Position numbers and translations under genes: made by a program
In this document: positions 1 through 49,722 of the stretch, piece after piece
Layout of the letters: each line of letters starts with the position of its first letter
Numbering within the stretch: position 1 is the stretch's first letter
The notes under the pieces: generated by a model
What the model was told of the DNA's origin: nothing
The model's database searches: none
Seen by the model: the letters and a program-made list of their open reading frames with translations, nothing else
Assembly (NCBI GenBank): GCA_019310525.1
Contig: JAFDEE010000007.1
Location: 1-54,370, forward strand
Length of the DNA stretch: 54,370 nucleotides
Source of the DNA: Deltaproteobacteria bacterium
Lineage (GTDB): Bacteria > Desulfobacterota > DSM-4660 > Desulfatiglandales > HGW-15
Direction: 5' to 3'

Positions 1-117
1 GGATTAAAATTTGAGTCTGACCTGTCTGCCGTGCCTGCCTGCCCCTTGGAATGGCAGATAGGCCCGGCACAGGCAGGCGCAGAAATTGAGCAAAAGGGGG
101 CGTTTTTCAAAGGTCTC
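1..117 (+). repeat. Partial copy of dispersed repeat A (right part)
   Basis: This is the right-hand part of the repeat seen whole at 9313-9502 and, with other ends, at 49437-49596. It opens inside the core's 3' stem arm (ggattaaaatttgag), runs through a long variable hairpin rich in CTGCC/GGCAG, and ends in the terminal repeat gcgtttttcaaaggtctc at 100-117. The left end lies outside the window. The reading frame of the kinase gene remains open through this element, so residues encoded here should not be taken as kinase sequence. Confidence 0.8.
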
Positions 118-9270: not shown

Positions 9271-9307
9271 CGGTTTTTTTCTCCCATCCCCCGTTAGGGG
9301 CAATAAA
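9271..9307 (+). repeat. Short copy of repeat B (3' module only)
   Basis: A poly-T run, then ctcccatccccc, a short loop and aggggcaataaa, matching the 3' hairpin module of the repeats at 29146, 38463 and 47061 (consensus ctcccattccc - loop - gggacaataaa). The upstream gtcttcg hairpin of the family is not clear in this copy. It ends right at the target duplication of the next repeat. Confidence 0.5.
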
Positions 9308-9312
9308 GCAAA

Positions 9313-9502
9313 GAGACCTTTGAAAAACGCCCCCTTTTGCCCAATTGCGGCGTCAGGCTCAAACCGGGGACCCGCCCGAAGGGTGAGGAGTCGTCGCTTC
9401 GCGCGGACAAATTTCAATCCTCAAAATACTAAATGTATTCCTGCGGTTGAAATTTTCGCCTTCCTTGAACTTGACCAAAATTGAGCATTTTTCAAAGGTC
9501 TC
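9313..9502 (-). mobile_element. 190-bp MITE-like element carrying repeat-A core
   Basis: The ends are inverted repeats: gagacctttgaaaaacgc at the left and gcatttttcaaaggtctc at the right, one mismatch in 18. The element is flanked on both sides by GCAAA (9308-9312 and 9503-9507), a 5-bp target-site duplication. Read on the minus strand, the inside holds the repeat-A core: stem arms at 9445-9460 and 9405-9420 with an inner AATAC/GTATT stem. A GC-rich variable hairpin follows. It has no coding capacity, so it would need a transposase from elsewhere. Confidence 0.8.
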
Positions 9503-9536
9503 GCAAAAAGGCCGCAGCGAGGTGCGGCCTTTTTGC
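9503..9536. terminator. Bidirectional intrinsic terminator
   Basis: A perfect 14-bp stem, gcaaaaaggccgca (9503-9516) with tgcggcctttttgc (9523-9536), and a 6-nt loop. Runs of A on one side and T on the other let it work in both directions. It lies between convergent transcription from ppsA-fabH and from the TAXI transporter operon. Confidence 0.85.
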
Positions 9537-28620: not shown

Positions 28621-29154
28621 GTGCGAAGAGTGGGATTCCTTTCAACCACCGACCGCATCTTTGACGTCCTGCTGAAGGTCCTTGCCTGGCTTGCGGGCAT
28701 CCTGATGATGTTCGCCCTTGCGAGCGTCAGCGTCGACGTCGTGCTGAGGTACTTTTTCAACAAACCCATAGGGTGGGTGCTCCAAATCAGCGAGTACATC
28801 CTTCTCTACATCCCTTTTCTGGCGGCAGGCTATGTCCTCAGGCAGGAAAGCCACATCCGGATCGATATCGTGCTGAACCGGGTCAACCGGAGGTTACAAA
28901 ACAAGATCAACATGATCACCTCTCTTCTCGGAGCCCTTGTCCTCCTGATTCTCGCTTATTACGGCGCCTATGTTACCTACGATTTTTATCAAAGGGGAGT
29001 ACCCACTCTAAAATACCTAAAAATCCCTGAATTCCTTGTCATCATGGTGATTCCCGTGGGTTGTTTCTTCTTCGCCGCCGAATTCGTGAGAAGGGCCTGC
29101 AAATTATACAAAGAGGGCCGTACTGGAACCCTTTCGGGAAAAAACTCGAACTGA
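28621..29154 (+). CDS. TRAP small permease, DctQ family
   Basis: A four-span membrane protein of 177 residues (LLKVLAWLAGILMMFALASV, ISEYILLYIPFLAAGYVL, a third near LLGALVLLILAYYG, and a fourth near FLVIMVIPVGCFFFAAEF). The family motif is HIRIDIVLNRVNRR. It starts at GTG 28621 just after dctP with GAGG close by; GTG 28630 is an alternative. Its last codons and stop lie inside a copy of repeat B, so the C-terminal residues KNSN may derive from that insertion. Confidence 0.9.
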   Translation: MRRVGFLSTTDRIFDVLLKVLAWLAGILMMFALASVSVDVVLRYFFNKPIGWVLQISEYILLYIPFLAAGYVLRQESHIRIDIVLNRVNRRLQNKINMITSLLGALVLLILAYYGAYVTYDFYQRGVPTLKYLKIPEFLVIMVIPVGCFFFAAEFVRRACKLYKEGRTGTLSGKNSN

Positions 29155-29207
29155 AGTCTTCGTTCGAAGGCGAGGGTTTTTCTCCCATTCCCCGAGAGGA
29201 ACAATAA
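29146..29207 (+). repeat. Copy of repeat B between dctQ and dctM
   Basis: Matches the 3' half of the copies at 38463 and 47061: tcgaactgaagtcttcg, a hairpin around gttcgaagg, then tttttctcccattcccc and ggaacaataa. In the other copies the last loop reads agtat or agaat followed by GGGACA. Here it reads cgagaGGAACA, which forms the Shine-Dalgarno of dctM, and the element ends exactly at the dctM ATG. Confidence 0.7.
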
Positions 29208-30521
29208 ATGGATTGGTGGCTCGCACTAATTCTCATGTTGGGCGTCATGGTCATCCTGATGTTATCGGGCATGCCGGTCGCCGTTTCCTTCCTCCTGGTC
29301 GATATCCTGGGGGCATTTCTTTTTCTGGGGGGGGATGCAGGCATCGTTCAATTGATCCTGAACATGATGGAAAGCCTCACCTCCTTCAGCCTTCTTCCGG
29401 TCCCCCTTTTCATACTCATGGGGGAGGTGATGTTTCATTCCCGCTTGGGCTTCAAGGCCATCGACGTCGTGGACCAGTGGATTGGGAAGGTCCCGGGGCG
29501 CCTCTCCCTTCTTGCCATTCTGGGCGGAGCCATTTTCTCCACCATGAGCGGCTCGACTATGGCCACTACTGCCATTCTGGGCTCCATGCTGGTGCCGGAC
29601 ATGCAGAAAAGGGGTTATCACAAGACCATGAGCATCGGCCCCGTCATGGGGAGCGGCGGGCTTTCGATGCTCATCCCGCCGAGCGCACTCGCCATCCTCC
29701 TTGCAGCTCTTAACCAGATATCCGTTGGGGGGCTCCTTATCGCAGGCATCCTTCCGGGTTGCCTCATCGCCTTTTTCTATGCCGCTTACGTGGTGATCCG
29801 CTGCCTGCTCCAGCCCCATCTTGCTCCGCCCTTCGAGGTTCCAAACCTTTCCTTGAGGGAAAAGTTGAAGGGCACCCTTCTCCACGTCCTGCCCCTCGGT
29901 CTCATCATCTTCCTGGTCATCGGTCTGATATTCTTGGGAATCGCCACCCCGTCCGAGGCGGCGGCCCTCGGAGCCCTTGGGACCATCCTCCTGGCTTCGG
30001 CATACGGGAAATTGGGTACCGAAACTCTGAAGAAAAGCATTATCGGAACGGTTCGGGTCACCTCCATGATGTTCATGATCATCGTCGGCTCCATGACCTT
30101 CAGCCAGATCATGGCCTTCTCGGGGGCCAGCGCAGGTCTCATTCGGGTGGTTACGGACCTGGATCTGCCGCCCATCATGATCCTGATCGCCATGCAGGTC
30201 CTCCTTCTCTTCCTGGGCTGCTTCATGGACAACCTTTCCATGGTGATGATCGCCATCCCTATCTTCCTCCCCATTGTCAATGCCCTTCATTTCGACACCC
30301 TCTGGTTCTCCCTGATCATGCTCATCAACATGGAAATGGCCAATACGACCCCGCCTTTCGGTCTCTTGCTCTTCGTCATGAAGGGAGTTGCACCGCCAGA
30401 TACCACCATGGGTGACATCTACAAGGCGGGAATTCCCTTTCTCCTTTGCGACGCCATGGTGATGGTCCTGGTGATGATTTTTCCCCAGATCGCGCTTTAT
30501 CTCCCGGGGCTCATGAAATGA
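29208..30521 (+). CDS. TRAP large permease, DctM family
   Basis: The 12-span channel subunit of the TRAP transporter, 437 residues. Typical segments are ILGGAIFSTMSGSTMATTAI, GPVMGSGGLSMLIPPSALAI, GIATPSEAAALGALG and NMEMANTTPPFGLLLFVMKG. Together with dctP and dctQ just upstream it forms a complete importer. The start codon is fixed by GAGAGGA seven bases upstream, inside repeat B. The position next to hydantoinase and CoA-ligase genes suggests it imports the substrate of that pathway. Confidence 0.93.
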   Translation: MDWWLALILMLGVMVILMLSGMPVAVSFLLVDILGAFLFLGGDAGIVQLILNMMESLTSFSLLPVPLFILMGEVMFHSRLGFKAIDVVDQWIGKVPGRLSLLAILGGAIFSTMSGSTMATTAILGSMLVPDMQKRGYHKTMSIGPVMGSGGLSMLIPPSALAILLAALNQISVGGLLIAGILPGCLIAFFYAAYVVIRCLLQPHLAPPFEVPNLSLREKLKGTLLHVLPLGLIIFLVIGLIFLGIATPSEAAALGALGTILLASAYGKLGTETLKKSIIGTVRVTSMMFMIIVGSMTFSQIMAFSGASAGLIRVVTDLDLPPIMILIAMQVLLLFLGCFMDNLSMVMIAIPIFLPIVNALHFDTLWFSLIMLINMEMANTTPPFGLLLFVMKGVAPPDTTMGDIYKAGIPFLLCDAMVMVLVMIFPQIALYLPGLMK

Positions 30522-38443: not shown

Positions 38444-38462
38444 CTTTAAGGGCCAAGGGGCC

Positions 38463-38612
38463 AAGTGAAAATCATTTTTCCCTTAAATCCCGATTTCTCA
38501 CTCGAACCCTGGACCCCTTGAATCCTTGAACCCTACTCAAAAAAACAATCAGACCAAAGTCTTCGCCTGAAGGCGAGGGATTTTCTCCCATTCCCAGTAT
38601 GGGACATTAAAA
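38463..38612 (+). repeat. Repeat B, long copy
   Basis: About 150 bp aligning along its length with 47061-47197: aagtgaaaatcatttt, a tctcactcga block, ccttgaatccttgaa, acaatcag, the hairpin tcgcc-tgaa-ggcga, and the final ctcccattccc-agtat-gggacattaa. It fills most of the gap after the PreA-like gene. No coding capacity. Confidence 0.75.
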
Positions 38613-38691
38613 GGGGTCTCATCCCCGAAATATCCCTCGGAAAGATATGAAAATCCTTGCTACTCAAAGAATCGGGAAAAGGACCCACCGC

Positions 38692-43969: not shown

Positions 43970-43993
43970 GACCTTCCCCCTCCTGGTCTACCT

Positions 43994-44033
43994 AGTGTCC
44001 ATCCATAAATGAGAACATTTATGGATGGACACT
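43994..44033. mobile_element. 40-bp perfect palindrome with 4-bp target duplication (collapsed MITE)
   Basis: agtgtccatccataaatg (43994-44011), a 4-nt centre agaa, then the exact reverse complement (44016-44033). Both sides carry ACCT (43990-43993 and 44034-44037). The arms are identical to the ends of the 160-bp element at 49437-49596, so this is the same terminal repeat pair with no interior. The centre agaa also follows the left end of the long copy. Confidence 0.85.
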
Positions 44034-44097
44034 ACCTAAAATTACCGCTTCCTTGTACCCGTGCGGTTCTAATGCCCCCCCGGAAATCCTTCCGCCG

Positions 44098-46913: not shown

Positions 46914-47060
46914 ACAGGCTTTACTCGGAACACCCTGATTTTCCCGAAACAAAAGGGAGACTGAATCGCAATTTCCCAACAGAATCAAATCAGATGTTCA
47001 CCCACCCTCTACTACTACAACACCCTCCGGCCCGGCCAAGGGTTCAGGGTTCAAGGGTTC

Positions 47061-47197
47061 AAGTGAAAATCATTTCAGCTCAAATCCGTTTTTCTCACTC
47101 GATCCCTTGAATCCTTGAATCCTATTGAAGAAACAATCGAACTGAAGTCTTTGTCTGAAGACGCAGGTTTCTCCCATTCCCAGAATGGGACAATAAA
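47061..47197 (+). repeat. Repeat B, long copy
   Basis: Aligns with 38463-38612: aagtgaaaatcattt, tttttctcactcga, ccttgaatccttgaa, aaacaatcgaactgaagtc, a hairpin around gtctgaagac, and ctcccattccc-agaat-gggacaataaa. Upstream at 47038-47062 is a short tandem of ggttca(ag). The copy occupies the gap between the dehalogenase homologue and the AOR gene; the rest of 46914-47288 shows nothing recognisable. Confidence 0.75.
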
Positions 47198-49378: not shown

Positions 49379-49436
49379 CTGACAGCCGCAGCGTTATTAT
49401 CCATAGTCTTAACGATTCCCAATATCGATTTTAAAT

Positions 49437-49596
49437 AGTGTCCATCCATAAATGAGAAAATTTGTGCAAGGTCAAGGAAGGCGAAAATTTTAACCGCAGG
49501 AATACATTGAAGTATTTTGAGGATTAAAATTTGAGCCTGACCTGTCTGCCGGCAGGCGCAGAGATTGCGGAAATTGGCCATTTATGGATGGACACT
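49437..49596 (+). mobile_element. 160-bp MITE with perfect 18-bp ends, carrying repeat-A core
   Basis: The ends agtgtccatccataaatg and catttatggatggacact are exact inverted repeats, flanked on both sides by AAAT (49433-49436 and 49597-49600), a 4-bp target duplication. Inside is the repeat-A core: stem arms 49480-49495 and 49521-49537, inner stem AATAC (49501-49505) / GTATT (49512-49516), and then a short CTGCCGGCAG hairpin. It has no coding capacity. It lies just ahead of the AT-rich DUF3795 gene. Confidence 0.88.
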
Positions 49597-49722
49597 AAAT
49601 AATGTTCAGTCAATAACTGCTTTGAGAGGAAGGCGTGTTACGTCTCCCCTTTACACGCATCCTCAAGCTGGCTGTTATACATTTGCAATATTAACAATTT
49701 GACAAACAGGAGAATTGAAACA

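Follow-up and report, generated by a model that had tools for sequence, protein, structure and literature searches.

Short non-autonomous transposons with several types of ends share a conserved folded core whose stem pairs change together

The repeat analysed here occupies the middle of a family of MITEs, short non-autonomous DNA transposons of approximately 142 bp plus optional inserts. The central ~66 nt of these elements adopt a conserved fold whose paired positions change jointly and whose internal loops stay fixed. The same interior lies between different terminal inverted repeats and appears to have been moved by several types of transposase, at least three, and the hairpin is probably a functional folded module rather than junk. 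The elements are assigned to MITEs because they have inverted ends with exact target duplications, are dispersed in hundreds of copies, lack coding capacity and fold over their whole length into a hairpin.

Complete elements of two end types in the window

In the window, that is, the whole 54,370-nt stretch of DNA that was analysed, the plus-strand copy lies in a type-1 MITE (49438..49595, +) with GTGTCCATCCATAAA and its reverse complement as inverted ends at both boundaries. This element folds as one hairpin and is flanked by the target-site duplication TAAATA on the left (49432..49437) and on the right (49596..49601). Its conserved 66-nt folded core (49474..49539, +) matches the R1 covariance model at 94.5 bits. 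Specifically, the left arm (49480..49495, +) consists of GGC, the GA of a tandem G.A mismatch and AAATTTTAACC, whereas the right arm (49521..49537, +) consists of GG, a bulged A, TTAAAATTT, the GA of the tandem mismatch and GCC, and the two arms enclose an inner hairpin, GGAATAC-loop-GTATTTT (49499..49518, +). The minus-strand copy lies in a type-2 MITE (9313..9502, −) with ends GAGACCTTTGAAAAA, flanked by the target-site duplication GCAAA at 9308..9312 and 9503..9507. This element comprises a conserved folded core (9402..9466, −; 85.7 bits with the R1 covariance model) and one inserted hairpin module, part of which (CACCCTTCGGGCGGGTCCCCGG) lies at 9364..9385 (−).

An earlier note had described a nested stem with a compensatory base change in these two copies, and re-reading of the sequence bears this out. 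The outer arms of the plus-strand copy are GGCGAAAATTTTAACC (49480-49495) and GGATTAAAATTTGAGCC (49521-49537), the inner stem is AATAC (49501-49505) paired with GTATT (49512-49516), the pair T49491:A49526 corresponds exactly to the C:G pair 9449:9415 of the minus-strand copy, and the loops differ as claimed (ATTGAA versus ATTTA). The note was right about the repeat copies and their fold, but it overlooked the terminal inverted repeats and the target duplications of two kinds that bound them, and with these the fact that the hairpin forms the middle of a transposon, a setting in which complementarity of the ends is to be expected for a separate reason. The 72-nt core has a fold energy of -24.7 kcal/mol, against -9.6 kcal/mol (sd 2.8) for its shuffles (z -5.3), while the whole elements fold at z -5.9 and -10.6, and the ~142-nt element as a whole forms a single long hairpin. 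Additionally, a 27-nt core pattern with up to three mismatches allowed has one match in the window, with 0 expected.

A third copy of type 2 at 1..117 (+), cut by the contig start, retains the right-hand part of the element, with the right arm alone of the core, together with another hairpin module; the module CTGTCTGCCGTGCCTGCC...GGCACAGGCAGG, which is common to both end types, is nested in this copy. A solo palindrome at 43993..44034 consists of two type-1 ends with no core between them. Other hairpin modules, at least four in number, are also present within elements, each of them in both type 1 and type 2, and the module of the copy at 9313 has an identical right-hand junction in the two types, at the same insertion site. 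By appearance, these inserted modules are small repeats within the larger MITE. Another dispersed repeat, unrelated to the first and consisting of TTTCTCCCATTCCC...GGACAATAAA with a AAGTCTTCG...CGAAGGCGAGGG part, is intergenic in the window (9278-9307, 29123-29211, 38445-38614 and 47043-47197) and could be a leader or a mobile repeat of another kind.

The same core lies between at least six types of ends

Six or more different terminal inverted repeats flank this one core at an unchanged spacing. Exact target duplications were counted for four of these end types: 6 bp for type 1 (34 of 73 copies, 1.7 expected), 5 bp for type 2 (78 of 142, 1.1 expected), 4 bp for GAGCCAGTTTCAAAA (12 of 20, 0.6 expected) and 6 bp, often TAnnTA, for GTGCCCGAACGAAAAC (11 of 24, 2.0 expected). 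In all four measurable types the core lies 37 nt from the left end, and the median element length is 141-143 nt. Both ends were assigned, as scored within 50-60 nt of the core, in 233 copies, and in every one of these they belong to the same type. Identical 56-nt cores are shared between end types, types 1 and 2 of the source genome among them. At one locus near a contig end (L014), a type-1 left end is combined with an apparent type-2 right end, which is either a real hybrid or a misassembly.

Because different duplication lengths imply different transposases, as is established for DDE transposases, duplications of 4, 5 and 6 bp indicate that the interior was apparently mobilised by at least three of them. 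In the loci examined for an autonomous transposon, no pair of these ends surrounded a transposase gene. Between paired ends that lie 600-3000 bp from each other there are ordinary host genes or two neighbouring MITEs, and the candidate at C10:887-2493 encloses an unrelated PHP-domain-like gene. Likewise, the IS4-like element at L367:104-1612 (G000:C62), with a 467-aa ORF and an 11-bp flanking repeat (GGATGGACACT / GGATGGGCACT), was rejected as a partner, as it is merely inserted into a type-1 end. Pfam searches with PF01609, PF05598, PF04754 and PF01797 yielded no partner; in the high-copy genomes that were searched, the first three are seldom present or missing altogether. Insertion sequences are often lost from metagenome-assembled genomes (MAGs). 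At 3 of 25 loci a Y1 transposase gene is close to the core, which we judge to be about what copy density predicts. At L457:1-720 (G000:C146), an IS200-like Y1 transposase gene with its end hairpins is inserted inside a type-2 core.

The core is abundant in several genomes and spread over the phylum

Covariance model searches find at least 150 core matches in the 3.8 Mb assembly, in which the end motifs of types 1 and 2 occur 234 and 310 times, respectively, with one mismatch allowed. The core is present in 18 of 41 related genomes and, in a phylum-wide sample, in 40 of 297. Its carriers include many genomes of the sulfate-reducer type. Two relatives besides the source genome are rich in it, with at least 121 matches each (140 and at least 150 in a further count). 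A pattern scan of named genomes gives at least 120 loci, among which the carriers with informative titles are Desulfobacterales, Desulfobacteraceae, 'Deltaproteobacteria' MAGs and Candidatus Tharpella. The core was absent from the viral contigs, phages and plasmids searched. MAG assemblies break at such repeats and may form chimeras, and the ORF calls used in this analysis are crude.

Stem partners change together

A sequence-only alignment (nhmmer) of 216 distinct cores was used to build a tree, on which substitutions were placed by parsimony. Alignment A2, which includes reverse-complement matches, was left out of the results. In 25 branches a stem pair is altered on both sides and still forms a standard pair, spread over 13 of the 21 pairs; double changes that abolish pairing number only 2. 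If the substitutions are instead placed at random, 5.4 such coincidences result (sd 2.2), and none of 2000 placements reaches 25. When the register is shifted by 1-3 columns, 0-3 double pair-keeping changes are left. An enlarged set of 250 distinct cores gives 26 double pair-keeping branches over 13 pairs, a tree built from the unpaired columns alone points in the same direction (82 versus 17, sd 4), and an independent count also agrees with the fold. Among copies, the paired arms occur as AAATTTTAACC/GGATTAAAATTT, AAATTTCAACC/GGATTGAAATTT, GATTTTAACC/GGATTAAAATC, ATCTTAACC/GGATTAAGAT and GGATCGTAACC/GGATTACGATTC.

The compensatory reading that the earlier note had drawn from a single pair is thus supported across many copies, in which the two arms do not change independently. 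The covarying-pair analysis bears out this reading in part: 7 of the 8 top covarying column pairs are stem pairs, but no individual pair is significant at E<0.05 (best E ~0.5; R-scape-like per-pair G-statistic with a redistribution null), so that we limit the claim to the pooled test and to the structure as a whole. The copies are young, related and non-independent within a genome, and gene conversion between them, which the null model does not include, is likely. One-sided changes that leave a pair unmatched occur often, as 64 transversions and 38 A.C, which makes the constraint moderate.

A mutational origin of the paired changes would be copying of one hairpin arm from the other during replication (quasi-palindrome correction). 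Long hairpins are known substrates of this process, and all of the listed double changes end as Watson-Crick pairs. On the other hand, one-sided changes outnumber double changes, which counts against this process.

Internal loops stay fixed

The core contains three fixed internal loops, namely the tandem G.A mismatch, RCA/GA and a bulged A. The GA of the tandem mismatch is conserved at 98% in columns 10-11 and at 91-92% in columns 60-61, and A25, G46 and A47 of the internal loop and the bulged A50 at 98-99%. By comparison, conservation is 78-86% in stem columns 13, 18, 53 and 58 and ranges over 38-87% in the terminal loop, which varies freely. Internal-loop bases are therefore conserved at least as well as the stem, the less strict exceptions being loop columns 23-24. 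A kink-turn was considered and rejected, as its register does not match. Under quasi-palindrome correction, mismatches in the middle of a palindrome (tandem G.A, RCA/GA, the bulged A and G.U) should vanish, yet they are 91-99% conserved except at columns 23-24, and G.U is favoured over A.C. We consider this origin of the paired changes quite improbable.

The elements might also be ordinary MITE relics, whose old interior has no role and is alike in its copies through recent bursts and gene conversion. Many copies are indeed near-identical, and hairpin MITEs are common (PMC2229807). However, the same core is found in many genera and with six or more end types, and a relic would diverge in both loops and stems, whereas here the internal loops are conserved as much as the stems or more and the core covaries. 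The relic reading is disfavoured, and we regard it as very improbable. Taken together, these findings suggest that a selected folded module within a MITE superfamily is the most likely reading.

One strand probably folds

On the modelled strand, one-sided changes give G.U more often than A.C (74 versus 38, p=0.0009), also when the two inner pairs are removed (62 versus 37, p=0.015). Because G.U is favoured over A.C, the asymmetry points to folding of one strand, either as RNA or as a particular DNA strand. In the source and related genomes, type-2 elements are co-oriented with their flanking genes at approximately 2.7:1 on both sides. With exact element boundaries, type 2 follows gene direction both downstream (69:26) and upstream (71:26) of genes, as well as between co-directional genes (37:8), whereas type 1 has no orientation bias (12:13, 39:33 and 7:7, respectively). 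A gene-orientation bias of the core as a whole, which initially looked strong, was therefore rejected as proof of an RNA role, as it is confined to type 2 once exact boundaries are used.

One alternative is that the core acts as single-stranded DNA or as a cruciform, as an accessory site for a host factor or for the transposition complex that joins the ends and suits several transposases. The fixed geometry across four end types (37 nt to the left end and 142 nt overall), the folding of the whole element into one hairpin, the location of every match examined in a mobile element and the lack of a link between type 1 and transcription direction are consistent with such a site. However, the 74:38 wobble asymmetry requires one special strand, a requirement not expected from DDE-type transposition, which acts on double-stranded DNA, and type-2 elements follow gene direction. 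We consider a DNA site of this kind unlikely, albeit a serious competitor.

For the selected folded module, we propose that different transposases would recognise the ends in trans, and that selection would keep the core through a fold of one strand that is read by something in the host cell. Reading would most likely occur as RNA, in transcripts of neighbouring genes that run through the element, and may stabilise or process the transcript, so that insertions would be tolerated; reading as one DNA strand during transposition or replication would be less likely. Run-through transcription is favoured because of the wobble asymmetry. Since the orientation bias is strong in type 2 and absent in type 1, the core as such does not entail it, and we therefore give an even chance to the view that the fold is selected because a host-cell factor reads one strand, probably as RNA. 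A broader view, to which we hold tentatively and with less than even confidence, is that the core may be a folded module capable of transfer, either a structured RNA or a domain of single-strand DNA, that has spread phylum-wide inside several unrelated transposon types and would benefit elements or hosts regardless of the transposase.

Relation to known systems

By the definitions tested, namely terminal inverted repeats, fixed-length duplications and short, non-coding, high-copy elements, and leaving aside an autonomous partner, the elements described here are MITEs. Usually MITEs are defined by their ends, and their middle is regarded as disposable; in these elements it is the middle that is conserved, folded and covarying, and the ends vary. 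If the fold is selected, it would represent an abundant undescribed structured element, with more than 100 copies in several genomes of bacteria that matter in the environment, and would offer a concrete example in which to ask about the gain that a structured interior brings to a non-coding transposon. A literature search, which mostly excluded subscription journals, returned nothing matching on MITEs with structural covariation or on MITEs in these bacteria.

Covarying stems with fixed internal loops are also a feature of the structured RNA families in Rfam; no Rfam family matched the window at gathering scores, and none matched the two elements credibly at relaxed thresholds. Small dispersed repeats nested in other repeats are known from cyanobacteria as SDRs, and the hairpin modules inserted at fixed MITE sites may be comparable secondary elements. 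REP, REPIN and BIME sequences with RAYT (PMC3116915, PMC2817692) likewise form hundreds of dispersed intergenic hairpins per genome, but the core elements differ in their inverted ends and target duplications, and with Y1 linkage in 3 of 25 loci these features rule out membership of REP/REPIN with RAYT.

The closest in kind to the core-bearing elements, whose hairpin transcripts are predicted, are Correia/NEMIS and ERIC. For mRNA-acting MITEs of the Correia/NEMIS kind, marked by RNase III processing of their transcripts and by an orientation or placement tied to transcription, the orientation counts of the core-bearing elements are split, with a bias in type 2 and none in type 1. Correia/NEMIS, ERIC and RUP are non-coding MITEs of 100-200 bp with inverted ends, target duplications and long hairpin transcripts, mostly without a known mobilising transposase, and Correia elements have size variants with internal inserts (PMC2229807). 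Distinct from all of these, the elements described here combine one folded core with six or more kinds of ends, with duplications of 4, 5 or 6 bp, and compensatory change in the fold has been tested across many genera.
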